Assembly (NCBI GenBank): GCA_943704525.1
Contig: CALSCQ010002414.1
Location: 1 to 45,510 of the forward strand
Direction of reading: 5' to 3'
Length of the DNA stretch: 45,510 nt
Source of the DNA: Pigoraptor vietnamica
Taxonomy: Eukaryota; Opisthokonta; Filasterea
Shown here piece after piece: positions 8,388-29,863 of the stretch. How positions within the stretch are numbered: the stretch's first letter is position 1; every line of letters begins with the position of its first letter. A program made the position numbers and the translations under genes. The notes below the pieces were generated by a model, which was given only the letters and a program-made list of their open reading frames with translations, had not been told where the DNA came from and made no database searches.

Positions 8388-8395
8388 TCACGTGA
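8388..8395. promoter_or_regulatory. E-box TCACGTGA upstream of DNAJC30
   Basis: Perfect 8-bp palindrome about 105 bp before the DNAJC30 start codon, with T next on the 3' side (CACGTGAT). One of the set described under findings. Confidence 0.5.
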
Positions 8396-8498
8396 TATGC
8401 CTGTGCACACGAATTCGGCGCGGTCACTGCAGTTTGCTGTTCAGCCCTGTGTCGCCCATTTCCGTGGAGCGTGACCACCCCCGATGCGCGTTTGTGTC

Positions 8499-9140
8499 AT
8501 GGCGGCGTTCACGTTGACCGCACGCGCGTCTTCTCGCCTTTTGGCGCCAGTACGTGCGCTGCACCTGCGCCGGTGGGCATCTGGCGCGGCGCACCCGCAG
8601 AGGGACTTGTACGGCGTGCTCGGCCTCAACAGCGGCGCCGCAGCGGGCGACATCAAGCGCGCCTATTACGAATTGTCGAAGCGCCACCACCCCGACGTGG
8701 ACGGGGGCAGCCCCGAGGCGTTTGCTGCGATCAGCGAGGCCTACGCGGTCCTCGGTAACCGCGATGCGCGTCGGAGGTATGACGTGGCACGCGCGCGGGG
8801 GCGGCCGTTCGACCTGTCCGGCGCCGGCGATGGCGGGGGCGCAGGTGTGTGGGAGCCGCCACAGAACCGTGCGCGGGACGAGAGCGATCTGGAGTCGCGC
8901 GGGTTTTCGTTCAATTTTGACGAGCACTACGAGGCGCACTATGCGGCCAACGCGCGGCGGCGGCGTGAGCGCGAGCACAGCCGCGCCGAGAGGGACACGC
9001 GAATGCGGATAGAGAAGGACAACACGCGGTCGCGCGTGGCGTGGACGACATTGGCCATTCTACTGGTCGGATTTGGCGTGGCCGAGGCCGTTGTGCTCAG
9101 CCGACGAAGACGCGCCGACTCTAAAAACGCGATAGTTTGA
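8499..9140 (+). CDS. DNAJC30: Mitochondrial J-domain protein, DNAJC30 type
   Basis: Single exon, 213 residues from the ATG at 8499; an in-frame ATG at 8484 would add five residues. The N-terminus (about 1-30) is rich in Arg, Ala and Ser with no acid, as in mitochondrial targeting sequences. The J domain (about 36-100) has LYGVLGL, the HPD motif at 64-66 and AYAVLGNRDARRRYD. After a Gly-rich linker comes FSFNFDEHYEAHY, matching the FNFDxFYxAHY block of human DNAJC30, then a basic helix and one membrane segment (about 180-200). Length and order equal DNAJC30 (WBSCR18), an inner-membrane J protein linked in mammals to ATP synthase and complex I turnover. Convergent with the Ca2+ pump gene, 102 bp apart. 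Confidence 0.9.
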   Translation: MAAFTLTARASSRLLAPVRALHLRRWASGAAHPQRDLYGVLGLNSGAAAGDIKRAYYELSKRHHPDVDGGSPEAFAAISEAYAVLGNRDARRRYDVARARGRPFDLSGAGDGGGAGVWEPPQNRARDESDLESRGFSFNFDEHYEAHYAANARRRREREHSRAERDTRMRIEKDNTRSRVAWTTLAILLVGFGVAEAVVLSRRRRADSKNAIV

Positions 9141-9242
9141 ATTTGCCAATTCTTTATGCGTTTGCTGCGTTGACGCGTTTGAAAATCATAATGCGCTACG
9201 CCGCTGGAGGCGCGAGGACGCGAGAGATGCACGCAAGAGCGA

Positions 9243-13981
<4,739 letters not shown>

Positions 13982-14622
13982 GGCTGCAGCCCACGTGACG
14001 TGCGCGTGGGCAAAGTCGCTGCGAGGGCAACAAGGCAACGGAGCGACGGGGCCGTGGGAGAGCAGCGCTGCTTTTGTGCCTGGGGCAGATGCCCTGCTGG
14101 CGTGGCAGTTCGCCGTGTGAACCGAGGGTGACGCAGATCGCCCGCCCCGGATGACTGCGTGGGCCGGGACGTCGCGAACGGAAAATAGATAAAAGTGTCT
14201 AACAAACGGACAGTATTTAGGGATCCTCATGCACGATAAATCGAAACAGTATGCTCATGATGATCCCAAATTTGAATGAGGGTGTTCGTAGCGCGCGCGG
14301 AATTTCACTCTACTTATGCGGGCAATTGGGCCTTGTTTTGTGATTGTGATGCGCAGATGACGGCACCATGACGCAGCGCAGTGTCAGGATGCCGTCACGC
14401 CAAGCGCGCGAAACAGCCCTGTTTCACTCTGCTGCATCCGCACGCACAGCATCCATCCACTGCATCGCCCCATCCCCGCTCACACGCTATAAGAAGCCCT
14501 CTGCAGCACTCGGCGGGCAGCAGCAGCGTTCATTGTCCGTGTGTGCAGCCGGTCCAGGATGGTGGGTTTCGTGTGGAGGCCTTGGTGTGTGCACTTTCAA
14601 CCCTGCATCGCTCTAATGGAGC
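13982..14622. promoter_or_regulatory. Shared upstream region of SERCA and RAN
   Basis: 640 bp between divergent starts. An E-box with the recurrent flank, CACGTGAC, lies at 13992-13999, only about 10 bp before the SERCA start. A TATA-like TATAAG at 14488-14493 lies about 130 bp before the RAN start. The middle (14200-14350) is AT-richer. No coding signal seen. Confidence 0.45.
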
Positions 14623-15433
14623 ATGTCGTTTCTGCAGGAGGCCCAAATTCCCACTTTTAAGGTTGGTATTCTCGCAATGCGTTGTGTCTCGCGGGCGCAC
14701 TGCAACCGGCGGCTAATCGCTTGCTCCATGCAGCTCGTGCTTGTCGGCGACGGTGGCACTGGAAAGACGACGTTCGTCAAGCGCCACAAGACGGGCGAGT
14801 TCGAGAAGAAGTATGTTGGTGAGTACGTGCCTGGCTCCGTCGTCCGTCCGCGTCGCTCCCCCGCGCTTCTCTCTAAGCGTTGCAACTGACTGGCGTCCTC
14901 CAGCCACGCTCGGAGTTGAGGTGCACCCTCTCGACTTCCACACGAACCGCGGCGTTGTGCGCTTCAACGTGTGGGACACGGCGGGCCAGGAGAAGTTCGG
15001 CGGTCTCCGCGATGGCTACTACATCCAGGGCCAGTGCGCCATTATTATGTTTGATGTGACGGCGCGCGTGACATACAAGAACGTGCCCAACTGGCACCGC
15101 GACCTCGTGCGTGTCTGCGAGAACATTCCGATTGTGCTCTGCGGCAACAAGGTCGACGTGAAGGACCGCAAGGTGAAGGCGAAGGCCATCACGTTCCACC
15201 GCAAGAAGAACCTCCAGTACTACGACATTTCGGCCAAGAGCAACTACAACTTTGAGAAGCCGTTCCTCTGGCTCATCCGCAAGCTCAGCGGCGACCAGAA
15301 CCTCGAGTTCGTCGAGATGCCCGCCCTTGCGCCCCCGGAGGTCTCGCTCGACCCGGCGCAGGTGCAGCAGTATGAGCTGGAGCTGCAGCAGGCGCAGGAC
15401 CTTCCTCTGCCCGACGAGGATGACGACGCCTGA
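14623..15433 (+). CDS. RAN: Ran GTPase
   Basis: Small GTPase that drives nuclear import/export and spindle assembly. Three exons: 14623-14661, 14734-14818, 14904-15433; 217 residues, the usual length. P-loop [14 protein letters not shown] (from about residue 18), effector loop with [14 protein letters not shown], switch [18 protein letters not shown] with the catalytic Gln, base-recognition motif GNKVD and the [19 protein letters not shown] segment are all intact. The acidic tail DEDDDA stands for the usual DEDDDL. No lipidation motif, as expected for Ran. Convergent with the syntaxin gene, 283 bp between stops; divergent from SERCA. Confidence 0.98.
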
Positions 15434-15716
15434 AGACTGCTCCATTCGCCGCGGCGTTGTCGTCTCGCGTTCACCTGCAACAAGCTTTCGTGCGTGCCGT
15501 GTCGTCGTTTTTGCGCGTCTTGCAGGCGCAGCAGTGCCTGCGCATGTAAATTCTTGCTTCGTCCAAAGTTGCCAGCATGCTCTCACTGTGGTGTGGCAGA
15601 AGGAGCCCCCGAACAGCCCCCCGGAGTACTTGAACAGTTTTAGTGGACGCAAGCGAACTTAGGCTACCAGAGGCGCAATGGCGGCGACGGCGGACCAGGT
15701 GACGGCTGCCACCGGT

Positions 15717-17192
15717 TCAGCGTTTGCTGATGACGAGGGCGAGGACGAGAATGACGATAATCGCAATGACGATGAGGATGATGCATATCTTCTTCTGCTC
15801 GGTGTGGGAGAGGCGCGTCAGTGGGACTCGCACAGCAAACAATAGACGGAACAGACATCGCGGCCACGTGGGCACCCGCTCACAGTCACACCACTCCAGG
15901 CCCCAGCAACCACTGCGCACCATCCACTCAGTCACAAGGCAACCACTGCGCCCCATCCACTCAGTCACACCACCGCGAAGGCAACCACTGGACACATGGA
16001 CACACGGCAAGGTGGAGGCATGACCACGTACCCTCCGCGCGCTCGACTGGTACTTCTGCGCCGACTTGAGCTCCCCAGTGGCCTCCTCCACAAACTCAGC
16101 CGCCTCCGAGACGCTGTACTCGATGCGGTCAATCATCTCGCCCTGGCTCTCGACGAGGATGGCCATGTCGAGGAACAGCTCGTGCAGCTCCTGCGCACAC
16201 ACACGCACACACGCACACACGGTGAGGCTGTGCAAAATAGCACGCACAAGCACGGCATAGAGGCCCACGCGGGCCATGCGCAGTGCTCGTTTCAAAGCGG
16301 CACCTTGATGCTCTTCTCGAGCTTGAGAATGTCCTTGTGGCGGTCCTGGATGTCCTCGAGCGCCTGCTTAGCCTCGGCGTGGCTTGTCGACAAAATTTGC
16401 TGAGCAAAAATGTTGCCGCCCTCGCCCTCAAGCACCTTCTCGACCTCGTCCGCCGTCGCGTCGGGCTTCACTGCGCACGCGGTGGAGCACATGCCACGCT
16501 CAGTAACTGCGCCACGACACTCAGCCACGACACTCGCAAAGCATCTCCAACCCACCGATTTTGAACTGCCGCTTCACGCGGTCGCGGTACTTCTGCTTGT
16601 AGTTAGTCTGAATTTCGTTGTACTCGCTCATGACCTCCACGAATTTCTTCGACAAAATCGCATGCTGCGGATAGAGAAGCGAGCTGTCAGCGGAGAAGGT
16701 CGAAAATCCTGGCACAGGTGCCCGTTCGCACGGCAAAAGTGCCGCGTCCGTGCGCGTGTGAGTGCAGGTGTGAGCTTGTGTTTGCGTGTATGTGTGTCAT
16801 GGGAAAATACAAGAGGGTTTCCCCCCTCTCGATGCCATTTGCCCACAGGCAAAGGGTGTGGACGAGGCAAGCACCTGGCTTTCCCTGATGCGAATGTCGG
16901 CGCCCTTCCCGCCCTCGTGGTTGCGCGCAATCTCCTTGTTCTCCTTGTCGATCTGCTTGAGCTTGTTGCGCACGCGGTTGGCAAGCACCTGCGTCTCCTC
17001 CATCAGGCGGTCCATCTCCTCGTTGTTCTCTGCGAGGTGCAGGGTAGAGGTCAGAATGTGCGCGCGGGGGGGTCAGACGCCCATTGGTCAGTGCAGCGAG
17101 GGCAACTGCTCTGAGGCAGCTGCAACCAAGGCACACAGGCCGCAAATGGGCAGCACAGCGCGTCAGGACAATGCTGAAATCCCAATAGGCTA

Positions 17193-17266
<74 letters not shown>

Positions 17267-17683
17267 CACACAAACGTTGTGCTGAGACCAACGACACGCA
17301 CTTTGACCCTGCTTCTCGCTGATAGCAGCGAGGGCCTGTCCATGCTTCTCGGAAATGAGTTTGATCTTCTTCTCGATCTCAGTGATGTTCGCTCGCGTTT
17401 CCGCCACCTGCGCAGCGATAAATGAGTGCAAACCGAAAATGCGGCGGCACGCATGGACACAAGGAGGAGGTCGCACCATCTGAAAGAAGTCGGCCATGAA
17501 CTGCTCCCCATCGTCCACGGGCGCGCCCACGTCCATAGGCTCCCCACCCTCGGGGGCCGACGACGCCTGCGCCCAATGCGGACATGTGCAATGATGAGCA
17601 CCGAAAAAGTAAAGGGGGCTCAATCAACGGCCAGTCTAACAAGACATTACCGCATTCTTGAGATCTTTCAAGCGATCCCGCAT
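15717..17683 (-). CDS. STX1: Plasma-membrane type Qa-SNARE, syntaxin 1-4 family
   Basis: Target-membrane SNARE for exocytosis. Eight exons, minus strand: 17683-17651, 17566-17477, 17407-17302, 17029-16875, 16664-16556, 16470-16304, 16190-16032, 15794-15717; 298 residues. The N-terminus [11 protein letters not shown] matches the N-peptide that binds Sec1/Munc18. The Habc domain includes [20 protein letters not shown], nearly identical to human syntaxin-1 over this block. The SNARE helix has [20 protein letters not shown] with the zero-layer Gln. A 22-residue membrane anchor near the C-terminus, rich in Ile/Val/Leu, ends in SKR. Introns hold a CA/TA microsatellite and a 33-bp tandem repeat. Gene symbol marks the family (pre-duplication STX1/2/3/4), not strict orthology to STX1A. 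Confidence 0.95.
15907..15991. repeat. 33-bp tandem repeat in the last syntaxin intron
   Basis: Two full copies (15907-15939, 15940-15971) of a unit starting CAACCACTGCGC, plus a third truncated copy starting at 15982. They lie between the SNARE-helix exon and the membrane-anchor exon. Confidence 0.85.
17191..17268. repeat. CA then TA microsatellite in a syntaxin intron
   Basis: About 20 CA units followed by about 18 TA-type units. It lies in the intron between exons 3 and 4, which at about 270 bp is far longer than most introns here. Confidence 0.95.
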
Positions 17684-18438
17684 TTTCGTTGGAGTCCCTG
17701 CGGGAGCACCACAAGACTAGAGATTTCTGCCAAGCCCACCCAAAGAACAACGACACCAAAACACACTGACAATGAAACGGATTTTGTGAGCGCCTGCGTG
17801 CCGTAGCTTATACACGGGAAGTGAGTGATCAATTCTATGTGGTTTTGGGTGTTGTTGGTGCGTGGGTCTGGCGGCGTGAGCCACAATGTGGTTACAACTT
17901 GCTTGATTAGGCTTTTAATGTTCTCTATTTGCCATGTAAGGCCAAAAGAAATCTGCAAATGACCGTCATTTACTTTATGAGGTAAATTATCTTCCCATCA
18001 TTTTCCTCTTGTAGCCTTTGGGCGCTTTCGGAAGTAGTCCGCACTATATTAGGACGTACAAAAGATAGTCAAAAACCTGTCACGAATTGTGTGTCGCAGA
18101 GAGACCATTATTTAGGCTAGATTAACCCAAGCGCAATCGAAAGATATAGGGGTCGAATAGTGCGCATGGTGCGAGCGTGTGCGTGTGCGGTGTGTATGCG
18201 CGCGCGCGCGAGCCCGCCGCTTTCCGGCGCTCCCATTCGTTCTCTCGCTTATTATTGCCACAGCAACCGTGTGGGTGCCGCCCTTTGCGCGCCGCAGCAT
18301 GAATGGGTGCTCCCACAAACCTCCTCACTCAGCGTAGTGTGTGTGTGTGTAAGTGTGTGTGGGTGGTGGGTGTGGGTGCTTGCTGTGCGTGTGTGTGCCT
18401 GTGTGCTTGTGTTGCGTGTGTGCGTGTGTGTGTGTGTG

Positions 18439-18489
<51 letters not shown>

Positions 18490-18776
18490 GGTACCGTACA
18501 CAGTCGGCCATCGATCATACAAAGAAATAGATAGAGACAGAGTGATGTGATAAGTCTGTATGCATAACGTCATACGCGAACAAACGCGTCCCGTAAATTT
18601 ACGTATCCTGATCCATCTCTATCTATTCATCGTTATATCTATGTATTTCAGTAAATCGATTCATGTTAACCGTATTTAAAATGAACGCATCCACAAACTC
18701 CATGCCTTTTTTGCACCATATTAGAGGCACCCCAACGTACAACAGTCTGAATTTGATTAAGAATGAGAGTGCTTTA
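17684..18776. other. Gene-poor gap with AT-rich DNA and a GT microsatellite
   Basis: 1.1 kb between the syntaxin start and the BUD23 stop. 17760-18120 is clearly AT-richer than the rest of the window and carries no coding signal. 18341-18486 is an imperfect then perfect GT tract. 18560-18700 again is AT-rich. I see no tRNA, no open frame with codon bias and no transposon ends. Confidence 0.6.
18341..18486. repeat. GT/TG microsatellite
   Basis: Interrupted TG repeats growing into about 20 perfect GT units at 18440-18485; intergenic. Confidence 0.95.
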
Positions 18777-20051
18777 TCAGAATTGGATCTTCCTCTTTCG
18801 TCCAGTGTACTTTGAGTCGCGCTGAACGTCTTTTCCTTGCTTCCTCCGCCGCTCTTTCTTCTCCAGAATCCACTCCTTTGACTTGGGATCGGGACGCTTG
18901 CCATCTTTCTTTGAATAGTCGCGCCTGACGTCGATCACATCATAAGCATTGGCTGCCTCCTCCAAAGGACCAAGCAAAAAAAAAAAAAAAAGACAACTGA
19001 AGAAATGCCCACCTTGCTGATGTGAACTTCACTGAGGAGCCACCCTGGTCGTCTGTCTCCCCTAGAGCTCGCGGAAGTTCGCCGACAATGCCGGCGAACA
19101 AGCAAAGAAAGATCCTGAAATAAATCCAAATTAGAGTAAGGAGGCGGCAAAGCAAAGCACCATATCATGTGCGAATATTCAACTTACTTCTTTGCCTTCG
19201 TACTATTTGGGTAGTCAACGACGAGGCCACCAGTGAATCCGGCGCGCATCGCGGCCGCCGTAATCATTTCCATTTGTTCGGGGTCTTGCGGATAGAATTG
19301 AAAAACAGCTCTGGCACCACGCGCCATACACGCATAAAGCGTTTGGAAGAACTTGAGCAATCGCTTTTGTGGCACGTGCTCCCGCTTGTCGGCATTGCAT
19401 AGCCATTGGAGAGCCGAAACACTGCGACGAGTTTGCGTTAGTTGCATATCACAACCTCAACCTCACCCTTGTCGTCCACGTACCTGATCACACCGTCAAA
19501 CGTGCCGGGCCGAAAACCGAGACCTTGGCCCATATCTTGCAGAAAGAGGTCCCCCTCTGTCTCGCGTTCCACCGCCACTCCTACAGAGTAACAGCCAACG
19601 ACTCATGAGACCCATATGATGCAAATATTACAATTGACTCCGGAAAGTAACATACCAAGCATGTGTGGACTTATGTCGAGCCCGACCCAGACGTGACCAG
19701 CGTCGGTGAGCTCCTCCCCGCTGAGCCCGGAACCGCAGCCAATGTCAAGAATGAACTTTGGCTCCCCCTCCGGAAGATTCAGGAGTTCAATGGCGCGCTG
19801 AGACATGGTCGCCTGAATTTCAATCATGCGCGAGCTGTACGGGCGCCGAGTTAGCACTTTGCGACACGCAGCAATGCAACAGCAAGCGCACAATGCGCTG
19901 ATTCTCACTTGGACGTGTATTTGCGGGCCTCATCCTCGTTATAAAACTGCGCGAGTCAAGATGCATGAGCTTTCGCAATCACTCGGCAAACAACGCAACG
20001 TCACACACTCACTATCTCAGGCGGCGCCGAGTGCTCCGGACGGGACGCCAT
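18777..20051 (-). CDS. BUD23: 18S rRNA (guanine-N7)-methyltransferase Bud23
   Basis: SAM-dependent enzyme that, with Trm112, methylates a guanine of 18S rRNA during small-subunit maturation. Seven exons, minus strand: 20051-20013, 19946-19909, 19834-19656, 19580-19484, 19421-19188, 19114-19013, 18924-18777; 278 residues against 281 in human. Start [20 protein letters not shown] matches the human N-terminus. SAM motif I is [12 protein letters not shown], followed by [35 protein letters not shown] and [12 protein letters not shown]. The tail [13 protein letters not shown] and KYTGRKRK is the family's basic C-terminus. This gene is less GC-rich than its neighbours and uses GTATGT, GTACGT and GTAAGT donors more often. 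A run of 16 A at 18976-18991 lies in its last intron. Divergent from the PHD-MYND gene. Confidence 0.96.
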
Positions 20052-20105
20052 TCTCGTTGAGGCTCTCGTGTCACTGCAGCAGTTGAATCTGCCTTTTCAG
20101 TCGGG

Positions 20106-20130
20106 CTTGCACGTGCAAGTGGCACGTGAT
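20106..20130. promoter_or_regulatory. Double E-box in the BUD23/PHD-MYND shared promoter
   Basis: Two CACGTG cores, 20110-20115 and 20123-20128, seven bases apart. The first sits in a perfect 14-bp palindrome (CTTGCACGTGCAAG, 20106-20119); the second has the recurrent flank (CACGTGAT). The region between the two starts is only 161 bp. Confidence 0.5.
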
Positions 20131-20212
20131 GACCTGTTACTCCGCACAGCCCGTTCGCCTGAATCGATTCAACTGGCTTCGGCACTGCTTCTGGCCGATT
20201 GCAGACTCCACC

Positions 20213-21627
20213 ATGAGCGTGCTCTGCGTTGCGTGTGGACACTCCGATGGCGCAACGACCGCACTTTGCTGCGAATGCGGCCGCGGTGAGCATCTATTCT
20301 TCCCTCGTCGGCGCCGCGTCAGTCTCATTCCCTCCCTCCTCTCTTTCCAGCCTACCACACCACGTGCCACAACCCCCCTGTCGATGAGGCCATGCTGCGC
20401 ACCCACGCGGCGGGTCGGTGGGCGTGCTTCTCGTGCTTCTATGGCTCGGCAGAAGCGCTCGGGGTGGGTCTTTGCAGACTCACAATTGTACTGTTTACTC
20501 GGTAGTGCCTCACATATGAGCCAAATTGGTGCTCGTAGGACGTGAAAATCCCGTCGCCCGTTTCCGTCGACTTCGCACAGCACGAAGACACCGCCGCTGC
20601 CGACGCTGCGGTCAAACAAAGCGGCCCGACAGACGCTGGACATACTGACCGCGGAGAGTTGCCGCAAGCCGCGCCTGCGACCAACGCATCTGAGGGCGGT
20701 GAACGCCCTATGGCGAATGCCGCGAATCGTGCGCTGTTGGAAGGCGAGCTCTCTCATCCGCCCGTTACTGGTGACGTAGCTATGGCGGATGGCCTGATGG
20801 CGGTCGCTGTCGAAAGTGAGGGGCGGGCGACCGCCTCGCCAACGGATGGCGCTGCGGGCGTTGTTGCAGACGGCGGCACAGCCGACGGGCCCATGACCGA
20901 CGTGCACGGCAGTGGCGCAGAGCCGCAGGGCGCGCTGGAAACGAAGGTCACTCGGCCAGAGGCGGCCGCAGGAGTCCCTGCGGCGCACGAGGCCGATAAT
21001 CCGCGTGGGGCACCGACCGCCGCATCGTCATCCGCGAGCGATCCCGTGGCCACAGCCACTGACACGAGCACCGCCGGTGGGGGGAAGGATGGCAGCGCAC
21101 CGGCGCAGACGGACATTCCCGGGGCCACTGTGCCGGGCCCTGTCCCCGACGCCGTGGTCGCCGCTTCGGAGCATCCCAGTGCGGTCGCGGCGGGCGACAG
21201 CGCTGCGCCTGCAGTGGACTCCGCGGTCGCAAAGATATCCACCGACAGCGTGGCGTCGCGTGCCGAGGGTGAGACCGTGGGCGCCCCGTCGCCCGTCGGG
21301 TCGCACGACGGCCAGGGGACCGCCCGTGCGGCGCAGCCCGGCGAGTGCGTCGTGTGCTATGCGCGCGTGACACAGGTGTGCGCGTGTGGGCGGGGCTACT
21401 GCTCGCGGCCGCACATGGCGTCCGACCTTCGCACGCATCGCAGTGTGTGCCCTGCTCGGGCGCCGCAACGCGAGCCATGTGCCGTGTGCGGCACGATGAC
21501 GCTTGACCGTTGTTCGCAGTGCCGCGTGGCGGCGTACTGTAGCCGCGAGTGCATGCATCGCGACTGGCCGTCACACCGGACGCGCTGCGCTCCTCGCCCC
21601 GCCCCTGCGGCGCCCACGTCAGGTTGA
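20213..21627 (+). CDS. PHD-finger plus double MYND-type zinc-finger protein
   Basis: Three exons: 20213-20285, 20351-20463, 20539-21627; 424 residues. Exons 1-2 encode a PHD-like finger: CVACGHSDGATTALCCECGR, then AYHTTCHNP and WACFSCF, giving C4-H-C3 spacing. Residues of about 65-335 are a low-complexity Ala/Gly/Asp/Thr linker with no domain. The C-terminus has two MYND/HIT-like fingers: CVVCYARVTQVCACG with GYCSRPH and HRSVC, then CAVCGTMTLDRCSQC with YCSRECMHRDWPSH and C. The second is a standard MYND finger; the first is degenerate. PHD fingers usually read histone tails and MYND fingers bind short proline-rich peptides, so a chromatin or scaffold role is likely, but I know no family with this order. 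Convergent with the Mondo gene, 39 bp apart. Confidence 0.8.
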
Positions 21628-21666
21628 ATGGGGGTCCTAATTTTACAACCCGTTGCGTGCGGTGGC

Positions 21667-23642
21667 TCAGCCGAACATGCCAGACGAAGCGCCGCCGCCG
21701 ATGAGTGCGGCGCCCGGTGCGCCCGGGAAGAGAAACGAGGCGAGGGCGCGGAGGGATCGCACGGCGCACTCTCGCAGCGTCGGCAGTTGGCAGTGCCCCT
21801 CGACCCACGCAAACGCCGAGGTCGTGAGGACGTCGAGGCCGCCGGTGCCAACGAGCTGGTTGTACGTGGCAAAGAGCTGGTCGGCGATCGTGCTGAACTG
21901 CGACTGGTTGTCAAGGAGAACGGCGCACGTGCTAGCATCGCCACGCAAGCACCGCCACAAGCGCGGGGGGGATACAATCCAGAACTTGGGGTCTTGCGCC
22001 GAGCGTCGCTGCACGTACTCGCGATATAGCGCGGCGGTCGCATCGCCCGAATTATCCGGGGTGGGTGTGGGCGTGTCGTCGAGGGCGGCCAGGTGCTGCT
22101 GGTACTGGCTGCAGGATATCGTCAGTGGAAGCCCAGTCGCGTCCGCACACACGCGCACATCATACGCACTTGATGCCGAGCTTGAGCGCGCATATTTCGC
22201 GGCGCGCCCTGTTGGCCTCGTCGTCGAGGAGCGCGCGCTGGCGGGTGAGCTGCCCAATAAACTCGATGGCGCGCTGGAGCACCGTCGCCTTGCTGAACTT
22301 CTGCCCCGGGAGCCGCAGCTGGCACCCGGGGATCACGGCCTGCAGGTCGTCAAACCCGCTGCGAATGTGATTGCGCCGCTTCTGCTCGGCCGCGCTGTGG
22401 CCCGTCCGCCGCCCGTCCGCGAGCCCGTCCCCCGGTGTCGCGGGGGGGAGCAACGTCTGCAGGCCGAGTGGGCCGAGGGGCGCCATGGAGGGCACGTGGC
22501 CCAAGACGCCCAGTGTGGAGGGGTGCGCGAACGGGTTGAAGTTGGGCGCGGTCGCGGCCGGCAGCAGCGGTACAAGGCCAGGGCGCGGTCGCTCCCCGCC
22601 GCCCACGCCAGCCTCGCGGAAAATGCCTGCGAACAGCGGGGCTTTGTCAGACGGATGTGTACGTGTGTGTGTGCGTGTGTGTGGTGTGTGTGGTGTGTGT
22701 GGCGTTCCTGCGTGCGTGTGTACCTCGCAAGAGTTCCTGGGGCACGCCCACGTGAATCCACGAGTCTGGCGCAAAGGAGGGCAGCTCCACGCCCGATGCG
22801 CCCGCACCCAGCGTGTGGCTGAGGCTCGGCTGCGCGACATCGACCGTCATAGGCTCATCTGCGCAAAAAGAACACGTGAGCTTGCTGCAGCTGCCCATGC
22901 GCACCAATGGGGAGGCACACCGCCACACCGCACCGCAATGTCAACCGCACCCACCAATGTCGCGCAGAGCCTCGAGATGCGGGTGCCCGTGGGCGTCCAG
23001 CGACGAGAAGAGCGTGTCTGAAAACGAGCCCAGCTGAACGGCACCCGACGTCAGCGCCGGCCGTGGGGGCGCCTGCGGTGCCGTGTCACTCGCGTTGCGC
23101 TTCTTCTTGCGCGCGACCTGTAGGCGTTCGGAAGGGCACTAAGCTACTCCTAACTTACCGTCGGCCGCGCACCGCCGACAGCCACGCACCTGCTGCATGT
23201 ACCACGTGCGCCACTCCTTGTACTCGGCCTTCACGGCCTCGAGGTGTCGCTGCCACTGCTCACCGCCGCGCGCGCCCGCTTCAGGAGCCCCGCCACGCGC
23301 GCCGCCGCCGCCGCCGGTGGCCTCGCGAAGGGCGCGCTCAAAGTCGAAGAAGGGGGTCTTGCGCCCGCGCAGCCGCCACAGGTTCCACGCACGCCATATC
23401 GCGTTGTCCAGGCGCTTCTTCTCGATCCACGCGAGGTCGCGCCGTTTGTCGCGCGCAAAGCGCTTCCACCGCGGTTCGACGTCCGCGGGAGACGCGTATT
23501 CGAGGGTGAGCAGGCGCATGAGGGTCGCCAGCGAGTCGTCGACGACGCCGCCCGACGCGCTGCTGCCCGCCGTGCTCCCCGCAGTGCTCGCGGGGGAGGG
23601 CGGCACGGAGGGCCCGTGCGGTGGCTGTGCGTGCTGTGCCAT
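21667..23642 (-). CDS. MLXIP: Mondo/ChREBP-family bHLH-leucine zipper transcription factor
   Basis: Five exons, minus strand: 23642-23190, 23117-22955, 22858-22724, 22626-22170, 22108-21667; 549 residues, shorter than animal Mondo proteins (roughly 850 or more). The N-terminal part has PRWKRFARDKRRDLAWIEKK, LDNAIWRAWNLW and later KAEYKEWRTWYMQQ, the Mondo conserved regions that in animals serve glucose sensing and 14-3-3 binding. The bHLH (about 322-378) has GHSAAEQKRRNHIRSGFDDL, a His-Glu-Arg basic region predicting CACGTG binding, then FSKATVLQRAIEFI and a zipper. The C-terminus (about 403-545, FWIVSPPRLWRCL and LTTSAFAWVEGHCQLP) matches the dimerisation and cytoplasmic-localisation domain of ChREBP/Mlx. 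Mlx lacks the N-terminal block, so this is Mondo rather than Mlx. Symbol marks the pre-duplication MLXIP/MLXIPL gene. Confidence 0.93.
22655..22715. repeat. GT-rich tract in a Mondo intron
   Basis: Imperfect GTGTGTG repeats in the intron before the bHLH exon. Confidence 0.8.
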
Positions 23643-25571: not shown

Positions 25572-27013
25572 TTATGTGGGACTTCGCTGCATCGGCAGGC
25601 CGTACGGGAACTCGCGCGGCGCGCACTGGACCGAGTCGTAGTCGAAGTCGTCGTCGAGCGAAAAGGCCTCCACGCCGTCAAATGTCGGCGTCTGCGCGGC
25701 ACCGCGGGCGTCAGTGGCAGCCCCGTGTGCTGACGGACCATTACGTTGACTTACCGGGTCAATTTCGCCCCGCGCGCGCTCCTCCTCGAGCAGAGCGCGA
25801 ATCTCTGCCGCATACATGGCCGCGTAGTCGCGGGCGCCCGTTGCGCGTGGGTGCGGGGCGGCTGTTTCCGCGCCATCGTCATCATCATCGATGCGGTGCT
25901 CGGGCGGCGTCCACTCGCGGTCGCCGGGGGTGTGCTGCGGCGGCGCAGCAGAGGCATCCGGTCGGCTTGTCTCGTCGGCCTCGTCATTCTGCCACTCGGC
26001 CCGATGGCCCCCCTCGTCACCGGCAGCGTCTCCATTCGACCCTCCGCGCGACTCGTGCACTGCCTCCGGGGCACTCGCGTCCTCTTCGTCGCTCACTTCG
26101 CCGAGGAGGTCGTAGAGGTCAGTTGCCGGCGGCACACGAACAGCACTCTCCATCGCCACCGTCGTCCTTGGCACGATGTGTTCGGTGAAAGCGCCCTCCG
26201 CACTTGCCGATTGCAACACTGCGCCGCCCCAGCCGCCCAGCGTGGCCACCGGCTTGTCTGTGGAGTCTGTCGCGGGCAACCGCGAGGGCCTGTATTCGCG
26301 CGGAGAGCCACACGGCGACTCGCCGTCGCTCCCCATACCTTCGTCTTCACCCTCGATAAAGTTGTCCAGCTGCATGCAACACTGTGTGTCACGGAAGGCC
26401 ACTGGCACCGCGCAGCGCTATCTCGGCTCACCTTGGGCGCACGCACGCCAGACGACAGAAGGAAGCCGCCCGTCCGCTGCGCACTCTCCTCTTCCGCGCA
26501 TATCTCCTCAAGGGCCTCGCTCTCGGCGGCCGCAAGGCGCAGAGTCCGCTGCGCCGCATTGAAACAACGTGTCATCGCACCATCATGCGCCGTCCACGCC
26601 GCATTCGATGCTCACCGCGCGCTCCTCTGCAACGAACGCAAGCAGTTTCCGCCGCGTGTGTTCGTTGAGTCCGTCGCCATGCGAGGTAACTGCCTCCAGC
26701 CTTGCGGCGGCGGCCACAATAGGGAGCGGCTCCGGCACGTCCGCATCCGCCACTGCGCCATTGTGCGAGTGAGAGCCTGCGGCACCGCACCACCAAGAGC
26801 AGCACCACACACCGTCGAGAGTCTCAAAGGACTCCAGGAACTGTCGGTAACCCTGTGTGCCGGCGGCAAGCACCTGCAACTCGCAAGCGTGAGCATGCCA
26901 CGAACAAGCGGGATCCAACAACACCCAACACATACCGACTGTAGCACGGAGAGCATCGCAGCCTCCATGGCCGCGTCGCTCGCGTTGGCTTCGCGGCCCG
27001 TGGTGCCCGGCAT
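25572..27013 (-). CDS. Unrecognised acidic protein
   Basis: Six exons, minus strand: 27013-26936, 26873-26813, 26776-26616, 26548-26432, 26369-25755, 25691-25572; all phases fit, 383 residues. N-terminal part (about 1-140) is mainly helical, with AAMEAAMLSVLQSVLAAG and RKLLAFVAEERARTLRLAA and a possible coiled coil. The middle is acidic, Gly/Pro-rich and probably unfolded, with a run of Asp at RIDDDDDGAE. A second helix ARDYAAMYAAEIRALLEEER follows, and the end is EAFSLDDDFDYDSV. I recognise no family. Its divergent partner is tectonic, so a ciliary role is possible but only by neighbourhood. Its stop lies 16 bp from the PEX12 stop, so the two 3' UTRs must overlap. Confidence 0.75.
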
Positions 27014-27075
27014 GCTGAGGGCACTATGGGGTCAGCCCCGCAACTCGGCAATTTGACGGCAGCCGTGATGACCGG

Positions 27076-27084
27076 TCACGTGAT
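27076..27084. promoter_or_regulatory. E-box TCACGTGAT in the tectonic upstream region
   Basis: Core 27077-27082 within the 165 bp between the divergent starts of the acidic protein and tectonic. Confidence 0.5.
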
Positions 27085-27178
27085 GGCTGTGGAATGCGCG
27101 GGCCAAGTGCAGTCTGCCACTCAAAGTGCGGATGCAGCCACTCGCACACTGCATCACAGCTGCACGCGGCTTGCGAGG

Positions 27179-29863
27179 ATGTCCCCGCGGGTGCCAGTCG
27201 TCGCTGTGGCACTGGCGGTGCCGGTGCTGCTGCTGCTTGCCGCTGCTGTGCGCGCAGACTCGCTGTCGTCGTCGGTTTCTGTATCGACCGCCTCACGATC
27301 GTCCTCTGCCACGGCGTCATCCCAGTCCACTTCCCTATCCTCTGCGGCCTCTGTGTCCTCCCTTTCCTCTGCGACCAATGCTGCCGTCTCTTCCTCCTCT
27401 CCTCTTTCAATTCCGTCGCCGTCGCTCAGTTCTGTGTCTGCGGCGGCTTCGACGACGGCCACAGCCTCTCCCTCGGAAGCCGCAGAGGCATCTTCATCGA
27501 CGCCCCTTGCAGAATCGAGCGCGCTGGCAACGGCATCCGTTTCCGCCACGACGGTGTCGGCTGCTGCGACAGCGACCACGGGAGCGCCATTGGTCCCCAC
27601 CACGACGCTGCCGATTGTGTGGCCGAGCGCGGTGCCTGCGGGGCCCATTTCGGACTACGAGACGAACATTGGCACGTGCCTGTGCGACCTGACGCTCAAC
27701 AGCTGCGACGCGAACTGCTGCTGCGACCACGACTGCTCGCTCGCGGACAGGGCGGCGTTTGGCCGGTGCGCCGTCGCGTCGTACGTGGACGACGAGCACC
27801 TCTGCGTGTCGGACAACCTGCTCGTGGCGGCGAACATCCAGGCGTCGAAGAAGCGGCCGTCGAACGGGGTGCGTGATGTGCGCGCCTGCGTCTGTCCGTT
27901 CACTCCCGTGACTCATCCCAATTGCGGCGTTCGCACTTGCAGGCGCTGTGCATCGCCAAGGACAACAATCCGTCCCGCCTGTATTATGCAACCCCGGCGA
28001 CGCTGACGACCGCCGCCCAGATCGACATGGCCCTCGGCCGTGCGCTGTGGTACTCGTTCCCCTCGATGCGCGCGGCCGCCGTAAGCGTCGCCCTCGCAGC
28101 GTACAAGGCACGTGTCCGCACGACAGCGTGTGTCTGGATTGTTTTGTTCCTTCTGCTGACCAGCGGCTGAGCAGGTGGGCGACCCCGTGCGCGTCGCGTT
28201 TTCGGGCGGCACTGGCGGATTCCTCTCCGTGCCGAGCGCCACGCTGACCGGGCTGTGTGCCGCGGGGCCGGCGGCGGGTGCGTCTTCAAGTGTGTGTGTC
28301 GTGTGCCGTTGTCCCTCTCTTGTCTTAGTGCGCCATGTCCCGCGCGCAGGGTATTTCCGCACATCCGCATCGTCGTGCCTCCGGCGCTTTGATGCCGTCC
28401 TCGCCGAGTGCCGCGCGGGGAGCGTGCTTGATGCAAGCACGTACTATTCGGGCTTTGGCGTCGTGATGGTGAGTAACATTGGCGTCCACATGCCAACTGC
28501 GCCCGCTGACGCATGTGCCACCGCAGAATGCCGCGTTCAGCCCGCTGGCTGGGAACGTGGCGGCCATCACCCCGTCGTGTCGCCGCACGGACGGGTCGTG
28601 GTGTGGGAGCGCTCCGCCGGCGCCGTCGTTCAATGCGACCACGGCCATGTGCGAAAATGCCGTGTTGGAGGTGCGTTTGCCGCGTGCCCCGTTCGGTCGC
28701 CCGCGTACGTGGGGTGTTGACTGCTGCTTTCCCTATTGATTCGTCAGGTGTCGTACATGCTCAACATCACCGGCACTGTCATCGTGGCGGCGTCCGTGTC
28801 ATTTGTCGTCGGTGACGTGGAGGCTGTGGCGCCATTCGTCGAGCAGTCGTTCGCCGTCGAATTTGCGCTGGTGCGGGGCTTTCTGCGCCGTTGCATCCCG
28901 TCATTGCTGTCCAATCAGTGGACAATTGCGCGGTGTGTGTGTGTGGATCGCATGCCTGCCTCACATGGTGTTGCCGCAGCCCACCGCCGGCGTCACCTTC
29001 GCCAAGTCGGGCAACCCCGGCTACATTGTTGGGAAGCCCGTCCTCGCGGGATCACTCGTCACCAACGGCGCAAAATATCCGCCAGACAATCCCTGTGCTT
29101 CCCCCCGCTTTCCCGTGTCGACGTCCCCTGGCTACCAGTGCAGCATGCTGTTGTCCTTGACCACTTGTCCACGCAGGCCATCGCGCTGAGCGTAGACCCC
29201 AACCAATGGCTCACACTGCCCGCGCCTATACCCTCGGGCGAGTGCGCGCCTTCGCTCCACCGGCAGGCGATTGATTTCGGCGTGGATGCCATCACGGGGT
29301 GTGCCGTGTCCCTTGGCGCCGGTTCCGCGGGGTCGAACTGCAACGCCCTCCGCGCCGCCGCTGCCGCATTCCTGCTGGGATATGGCGCGCCGCCGACCCA
29401 CGTGGCGCGCTTCGGCAACTCGAGCTATCTCAACGTGTACGACTGGATTCCCATTGTGAATCCCGGCGTGCCCGCGCCCTCCACCACCCGTGACACGTCC
29501 ACGATGTGCGCGGACGTCCCCACGGGCCTTGAGGTGCAGGTGCTGACGGTACGCGCGGGCTCGATCGCCAACCCGCAGTGGGCGGTCGTCGGGGCGCGCT
29601 TTGTGTATGCCGTCAGCGACGTCGCCGTGGACTGTGCGGGGCCGGCGTGCGGCGTGCTGCAGGTCTCCGCCGGCGCGCGCTTTATCGACACGACGGGTCC
29701 CGGCGGAGACTACAAGCCGGCCGCGCCTGAGGTGCTTCCGGAGTTCCCCGACGACTTCTTCTACCCGTTCTTCAGCGACAACGGAGCAGCTTCCGCGCGT
29801 CCGCTGCCTGTATGGGCTCTGCTGTTGTGCGTGCTGTGTATTGTGCGCCTCGTGTGGCAGTAA
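27179..29863 (+). CDS. TCTN1: Tectonic, ciliary transition-zone protein
   Basis: Extracellular/lumenal membrane-linked protein of the MKS module that gates the cilium base. Eight exons: 27179-27868, 27943-28080 (or 28107), 28175-28277, 28350-28468, 28527-28670, 28748-28870, 28980-29114, 29177-29863; about 712 or 721 residues. A signal peptide (about 1-26) precedes a long Ser/Thr/Ala-rich linker (27-150). The Cys-rich core CLCDLTLNSCDANCCCDHDC is the tectonic signature. Later come VGDPVRVAF, SGNPGYIVGKPVLAG, GAPPTHVARFGNSS with DWIPIVNPG, and GSIANPQWAVVGARFVYAV, which match human TCTN1 in order. A hydrophobic segment, WALLLCVLCIVRLVW, ends the protein. The second donor is uncertain: GTAAGC at 28081 or a GC donor at 28108. 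Presence implies a cilium or flagellum. Confidence 0.93.

Follow-up and report, generated by a model that had tools for sequence, protein, structure and literature searches.

In two published studies, linkage shared by animals and unicellular holozoans is described either at the scale of chromosomes or for pairs of genes (PMC10232365, PMC5560861). According to the first of these studies, 29 chromosome-scale synteny groups link Capsaspora and animals (PMC10232365). In the second, the local gene order of holozoans is presented as mostly scrambled, with few linked pairs common to Capsaspora and animals (PMC5560861). For human 7q11.23, a published table gives the order FKBP6, FZD9, BAZ1B, BCL7B, TBL2, MLXIPL, VPS37D, DNAJC30, BUD23, STX1A (PMC10502022), which confirms the human neighbourhood of DNAJC30, BUD23, MLXIPL and STX1A that had been cited in a preliminary description of the DNA studied here. 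Counterparts of these four genes lie within 15 kb of each other in a filasterean genome, and this cluster is probably a remnant of pre-animal gene order. A gene-scale run of this size would stand out among the known cases of shared linkage and, if the reading is true, part of the Williams-Beuren neighbourhood dates to before animals.

Genes of the run and their assignment

The window, i.e. the whole stretch of DNA that was analysed, corresponds to the complete contig C993 (45,510 bases) of a draft assembly of 32.5 Mb in 1,395 contigs. Gene models were built from stop-to-stop reading frames, Pfam scans and splice sites judged by eye. Seven coding genes were identified between 8,484 and 23,642, while eight had been claimed for 8499-23642. 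They encode a DNAJC30-type J-protein, a SERCA-type calcium ATPase, RAN, a syntaxin-1-class protein, BUD23, a MYND-finger protein and a Mondo-family protein. The DNAJC30, syntaxin, BUD23 and Mondo genes named in the preliminary description are thus all present, as judged by gene models and sequence matches, the J-protein being the less firm of them.

The J-protein gene consists of one exon on the forward strand (8484-9140, with the ATG at 8484 or 8499) and contains a Pfam DnaJ domain (58 bits). Its orthology with DNAJC30 is the softest assignment of the run and not fully proven. Among the 52 PDB matches of the protein, the J domain of human DNAJC30 (PDB 2yua) ranked third with 45.5 bits, compared to 47.0 bits for the best one. 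In the search of the genome with the human J domain, the window locus came out as the best of 12 places, though narrowly (43.8 versus 40.7 bits). Downstream of the J domain the protein possesses the residues FNFDEHYEAHY, which agree with the motif FNFDxxYxxHY. This motif occurred in none of the ten other J-domain places examined (about 1.5 kb each side, unspliced) of the 32 matching in the genome. Compared with the tail of human DNAJC30, the window motif gave an E value of 1e-4 over 12 residues. By plain reading of the protein, residues 183-201 near the C-terminus form a hydrophobic stretch with a mean hydropathy of 2.01, a candidate membrane span, and the N-terminus, which might serve mitochondrial targeting, has five arginines and no acidic residue among 34.

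The next gene, located on the reverse strand (9243-13981), has many exons and could be read only partially in its middle part. It revealed a Pfam Cation_ATPase domain, and a fragment of it matched SERCA2 with 179 and SERCA1 with 176 bits, while non-SERCA pumps did not exceed 68 bits among the best 60 of 79 matches. For the RAN gene (14559-15433, forward strand), four exons were modelled, the first one tentatively. A stretch of its last exon gave 324 bits to Ran and 76 bits to Rab7 among the best 60 of 791 matches. Going by these alignments, both identities are clear. Within an apparent intron of the SERCA gene (13752-13832, reverse strand), a C/D snoRNA of the SNORD33 family was detected with 50.5 bits against a cut-off of 44. 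The host gene of SNORD33 in animals is RPL13A.

Eight exons on the reverse strand (15717-17683) make up the gene of a Qa-SNARE of the syntaxin-1 class with a C-terminal membrane anchor. Over nearly its full length the protein matched STX1A with 212 bits, whereas yeast Sso2 reached 100 bits and the scores of syntaxins 7, 13 and 17 were much lower. It is 90% identical to an Opistho-2 protein and 56% to Capsaspora 'syntaxin 1.1'. In a tree that did not include animal STX2, STX3 and STX4, the gene fell into a holozoan clade, apart from two fungi (support 100/100), although only two of the 12 inner forks were starred and most were unresolved. A second, divergent syntaxin-1-like gene was found elsewhere in the genome (C708:15501-16275), on a contig that stops about 400 bases beyond it. 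This gene was rejected as a candidate, as were the weaker matches on C830 and on C670, all of them being poorer relatives than the window gene. No close copy of syntaxin P0170, the sole one listed for Opistho-1 (P. vietnamica), was present in the genome.

BUD23, the 18S rRNA methyltransferase, is encoded by seven exons on the reverse strand (18777-20051), the last splice junction being uncertain. The protein gave 350 bits to human BUD23, including the C-terminal tail. It is followed on the forward strand by a MYND zinc-finger gene (20213-21627; Pfam zf-MYND, 46.8 bits).

The last gene of the run, on the reverse strand (21667-23642), has six exons and a 78-base intron at 21975-21898. Its product is a Mondo-family bHLH-zipper transcription factor (Pfam HLH) which can be aligned with proteins of Capsaspora, of Nk52, which we take to be the ichthyosporean Chromosphaera perkinsii, and with vertebrate MLXIP/ChREBP (E values down to 5e-36). 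Judged as a whole rather than region by region for MCR I-V, the alignment extends over the NAIWRAW region at the N-terminus, the bHLH-zipper and the DCD domain at the C-terminus. The protein also contains SDTLFS, as do the vertebrate proteins, in agreement with the core [ST]DTLF[ST] published together with a 12-residue MCR6 signature (PMC3323566). It shares all these elements with the Mondo/ChREBP family described there but differs in being non-animal and in the first three residues of the MCR6 signature, which do not match. Two MLX-like paralogues, each with a bHLH and a DCD-like part, were observed elsewhere in the genome (C1037:11258-11983 and C160:3347-4395).

In PMC7003098, the origin of MLX and Mondo is placed in stem metazoans, and their absence is stated for choanoflagellates and other holozoans. 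The complete Mondo protein predicted in this filasterean genome, along with the relatives in Capsaspora and Nk52, contradicts that statement for filastereans, and for an ichthyosporean as well if Nk52 is Chromosphaera. The gene would date this family of sugar-sensing transcription factors to before animals.

Beyond the run, the Pfam scan of the window disclosed CDC73, a HAD hydrolase, an EGF-repeat gene, a Pex2/Pex12-type gene, tectonic, a GBP-type GTPase, an ion channel with a cyclic-nucleotide domain and a GNAT gene. An FG-repeat protein, an IFTAP-like gene and a metallo-hydrolase, likewise outside the run, remained below the curated Pfam cut-offs. The tectonic gene (TCTN; 26945-29863, forward strand; Pfam DUF1619_N and TCTN_DUF1619) is a possible further member of the block. 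Together with the weakly recognised IFTAP-like gene it forms a pair of adjoining ciliary genes (25572-29863).

The preliminary description had considered that the organism might be a close relative of animals, and this proved right. All three proteins tested found a transcript of clone Opistho-2 as their best database match (Mondo 59%, BUD23 84%, syntaxin 90% identity), and Opistho-2 is Pigoraptor chileana (PMC7147346), so that the DNA belongs to a Pigoraptor-like member of the Filasterea. As the identities stay below 100%, they speak against P. chileana itself. Both P. vietnamica and P. chileana have published genomes (PMC9492541). One might suppose that the run is an artefact, arising from a chimeric contig or from animal contamination, since the assembly is a draft of many contigs and the published Pigoraptor genomes derive from mixed-culture metagenomic data (PMC9492541). 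Against this, the three of the seven genes that were searched span 15.7-23.6 kb, and each had a Pigoraptor transcript rather than any animal protein as its best match. We hold an artefact to be hardly credible.

The neighbourhood in animals and in unicellular holozoans

Four of the five consecutive human genes from MLXIPL to STX1A have counterparts in the seven-gene run, and syntaxin and BUD23 are immediate neighbours both here and in human. For syntaxin, BUD23 and Mondo, the comparisons indicate orthology with the human genes, while the J-protein is less certain, as judged from database matches and alignments. Searches of the genome for BCL7 and VPS37 yielded no match, but the controls were equally matchless, so that this result carries no weight.

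Counterparts of further genes had been assigned to human 12q24, as a second copy of the same ancestral block. In the window, RAN adjoins syntaxin. Human RAN, as we assume, directly adjoins STX2, and we take MLXIP, ATP2A2 and TCTN1/2 to lie in 12q24 as well. The part of the claim that found support in the literature is that RAN and STX2 are both contained in one 12q24.31-q24.33 deletion (PMC3083380). A row of a chicken table places STX2 in one stretch with RF02271 and ADGRD1 but does not list RAN (PMC6903725), and adjacency of RAN and STX2 is thus not supported by that row. The literature search found no paper linking ATP2A2 with TCTN1.

For other animals, three species were found by eye in both match lists, comprising the best 120 of 5,324 matches for BUD23 and of 1,874 for syntaxin. 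In the sea cucumber Apostichopus, both genes were reported on a contig of 29,313,318 bases, and due to this identical size they are probably located on one chromosome. By contrast, in Pollicipes and in Lingula, whose contigs are short in the latter case, BUD23 and syntaxin are on separate contigs. In the literature searched, supplements excluded, no report of the neighbourhood outside vertebrates was found; the accessible passages of PMC4766361 contain none of the neighbourhood terms, and those of PMC8851819 neither syntaxin nor BUD23.

The positions of the genes in unicellular relatives were taken from the names and sizes of contigs in the match lists. In Capsaspora, the draft scaffolds of which come close to chromosome scale according to PMC10232365, Mondo, BUD23 and syntaxin 1.1 are on contigs of 1,292,750, 3,794,338 and 1,052,032 bases, respectively, and therefore on three scaffolds. 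The Nk52 genes (Mondo evm6s598, BUD23 evm1s2573, syntaxin evm8s281) were read as belonging to three scaffolds, too. Clustering of Mondo, BUD23 and syntaxin is hence absent in the two further unicellular holozoans examined, and a general occurrence of the neighbourhood in this group finds no support.

Chance, shared control and passive retention as possible explanations

To judge such a co-location, the expectation under random order was calculated with idealised gene numbers instead of real gene tables. The base model assumes a linear order of 20,000 human genes, 10,000 protist genes and 5,000 shared families, and counts human neighbours within five genes that fall within seven protist genes. 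By formula, about 15 cases of two neighbours, 0.007 of three and 9.8e-7 of four are expected per genome; three neighbours were seen in two of 300 simulated genomes and four in none. With other settings (runs of 7-20 genes, human spans of 5-10), the values ranged from 0.0023 to 0.92 for three and from 2.5e-7 to 2.4e-3 for four neighbours. This modelled null, used in place of the permutation proposed in the preliminary description, accordingly indicates that the genes lie closer together than expected from random order, which at base settings would give four of them about 1e-6 times per genome. The strength of this result rests on all four genes. If the J-protein were left out, three would remain, for which the base settings give 0.007 cases per genome, unless RAN and further 12q24 members were added to the count.

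These figures bear on the view that the genes met independently in vertebrates and in the protist lineage. Close pairs of human neighbours are common under the model, holozoan gene order is mostly scrambled (PMC5560861), and Mondo, BUD23 and syntaxin are separated in two unicellular holozoans, including a filasterean; in addition, the window was chosen for its striking look. On the other hand, at base settings the model leaves little room for three and far less for four neighbours, and SERCA, RAN and tectonic would come on top as extra 12q24 members. We consider independent meeting of the genes unlikely.

It is also conceivable that selection keeps the block together through shared promoters or co-expression, perhaps by means of E-boxes to which Mondo/MLX or similar bHLH-zipper factors bind. 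Two gene pairs, BUD23/MYND and Mondo/Pex2-Pex12-type, are arranged head-to-head. In six of the eight genes examined (the seven of the run and the Pex2/Pex12-type neighbour), a CACGTG box is located at most 100 bases upstream of the ATG, whereas 14% of the window positions have a box within 150 bases. These boxes occupy four of the five intergenic regions. CACGTG was located at 8389, 13992, 20110/20123, 23726 and 41010, the last one preceding the GNAT gene (frame start 40,980) outside the run, while RAN and syntaxin have none within 250 bases. The box therefore looks like a general promoter element and not like one specific for the block. The earlier suggestion that the cluster is held by shared control was not borne out by this simple E-box test, which did not single out the run. 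Moreover, the functions of the genes are unrelated as far as known, and since the three genes are found separately in Capsaspora and in Nk52, no general need holds the block. Retention by selection is thus very improbable in our estimation.

The run is likely to be an old block of linked genes, dating back at least to the common ancestor of filastereans and animals, that has been passively kept here and broken elsewhere. Old linkage is favoured because four of the five human genes are among seven here, because syntaxin and BUD23 adjoin in both genomes, because RAN lies beside syntaxin here and together with STX2 in 12q24.31-q24.33 (PMC3083380), and because of the probable single chromosome in Apostichopus and the general synteny between animals and filastereans (PMC10232365). 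Points counting against it are the dispersal in Capsaspora and Nk52, the few shared pairs (PMC5560861), the split in Pollicipes and Lingula, the idealised null, under which three neighbours may reach 0.92 at loose settings, the selected window and the orthology of DNAJC30, which is not fully proven. The pre-vertebrate linkage group assumed in the preliminary description is therefore likely but not proven: the improbability of such a run under modelled random order speaks for it, the separation of three genes in two relatives against it.

We infer from these data that the arrangement was inherited in common, how old it is and that its retention was passive. In the animal line the block would have stayed together. 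Genome duplications occurred in vertebrates, and these would have doubled the block, one copy giving rise to 7q11.23 (MLXIPL, DNAJC30, BUD23, STX1A) and the second one to parts of 12q24 (MLXIP, STX2, RAN, ATP2A2, TCTN1/2). Capsaspora and Chromosphaera would have dispersed it, while in the Pigoraptor-like genome the closeness at gene scale may have been kept mostly because nothing broke the block. A more far-reaching version would have at least six genes (DNAJC30, SERCA, RAN, syntaxin-1, BUD23, Mondo and perhaps tectonic) packed before animals arose, with both 7q11.23 and 12q24 descending from them and with one filasterean preserving them nearly whole through E-box co-regulation by the block's own Mondo/MLX system; this we regard as a long shot. 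The run would offer a concrete test of whether old neighbourhoods last through constraint or through luck.

Comparison with described linkage

What the run has in common with human 7q11.23 is the joint occurrence of four of five consecutive genes and the position of BUD23 beside syntaxin. What separates the two is that SERCA, RAN and the MYND gene are interspersed in the window, that the J-protein gene is apart from BUD23, and that no VPS37 was recognised in the run, nor any other gene of the 7q11.23 table in the window. With the ancestral synteny groups of animals that are also found in Capsaspora, Salpingoeca and Creolimax (PMC10232365), the run has animal-filasterean linkage in common. However, those groups are loose and chromosome-scale, while this run is gene-scale and belongs to another filasterean, three of its genes being split in Capsaspora. 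The head-to-head integrin alpha/beta pairs of Capsaspora and Corallochytrium (PMC5560861) likewise represent gene-scale order predating animals, as the run probably does, but they are functionally coupled, whereas the window holds at least six genes without a known common function.
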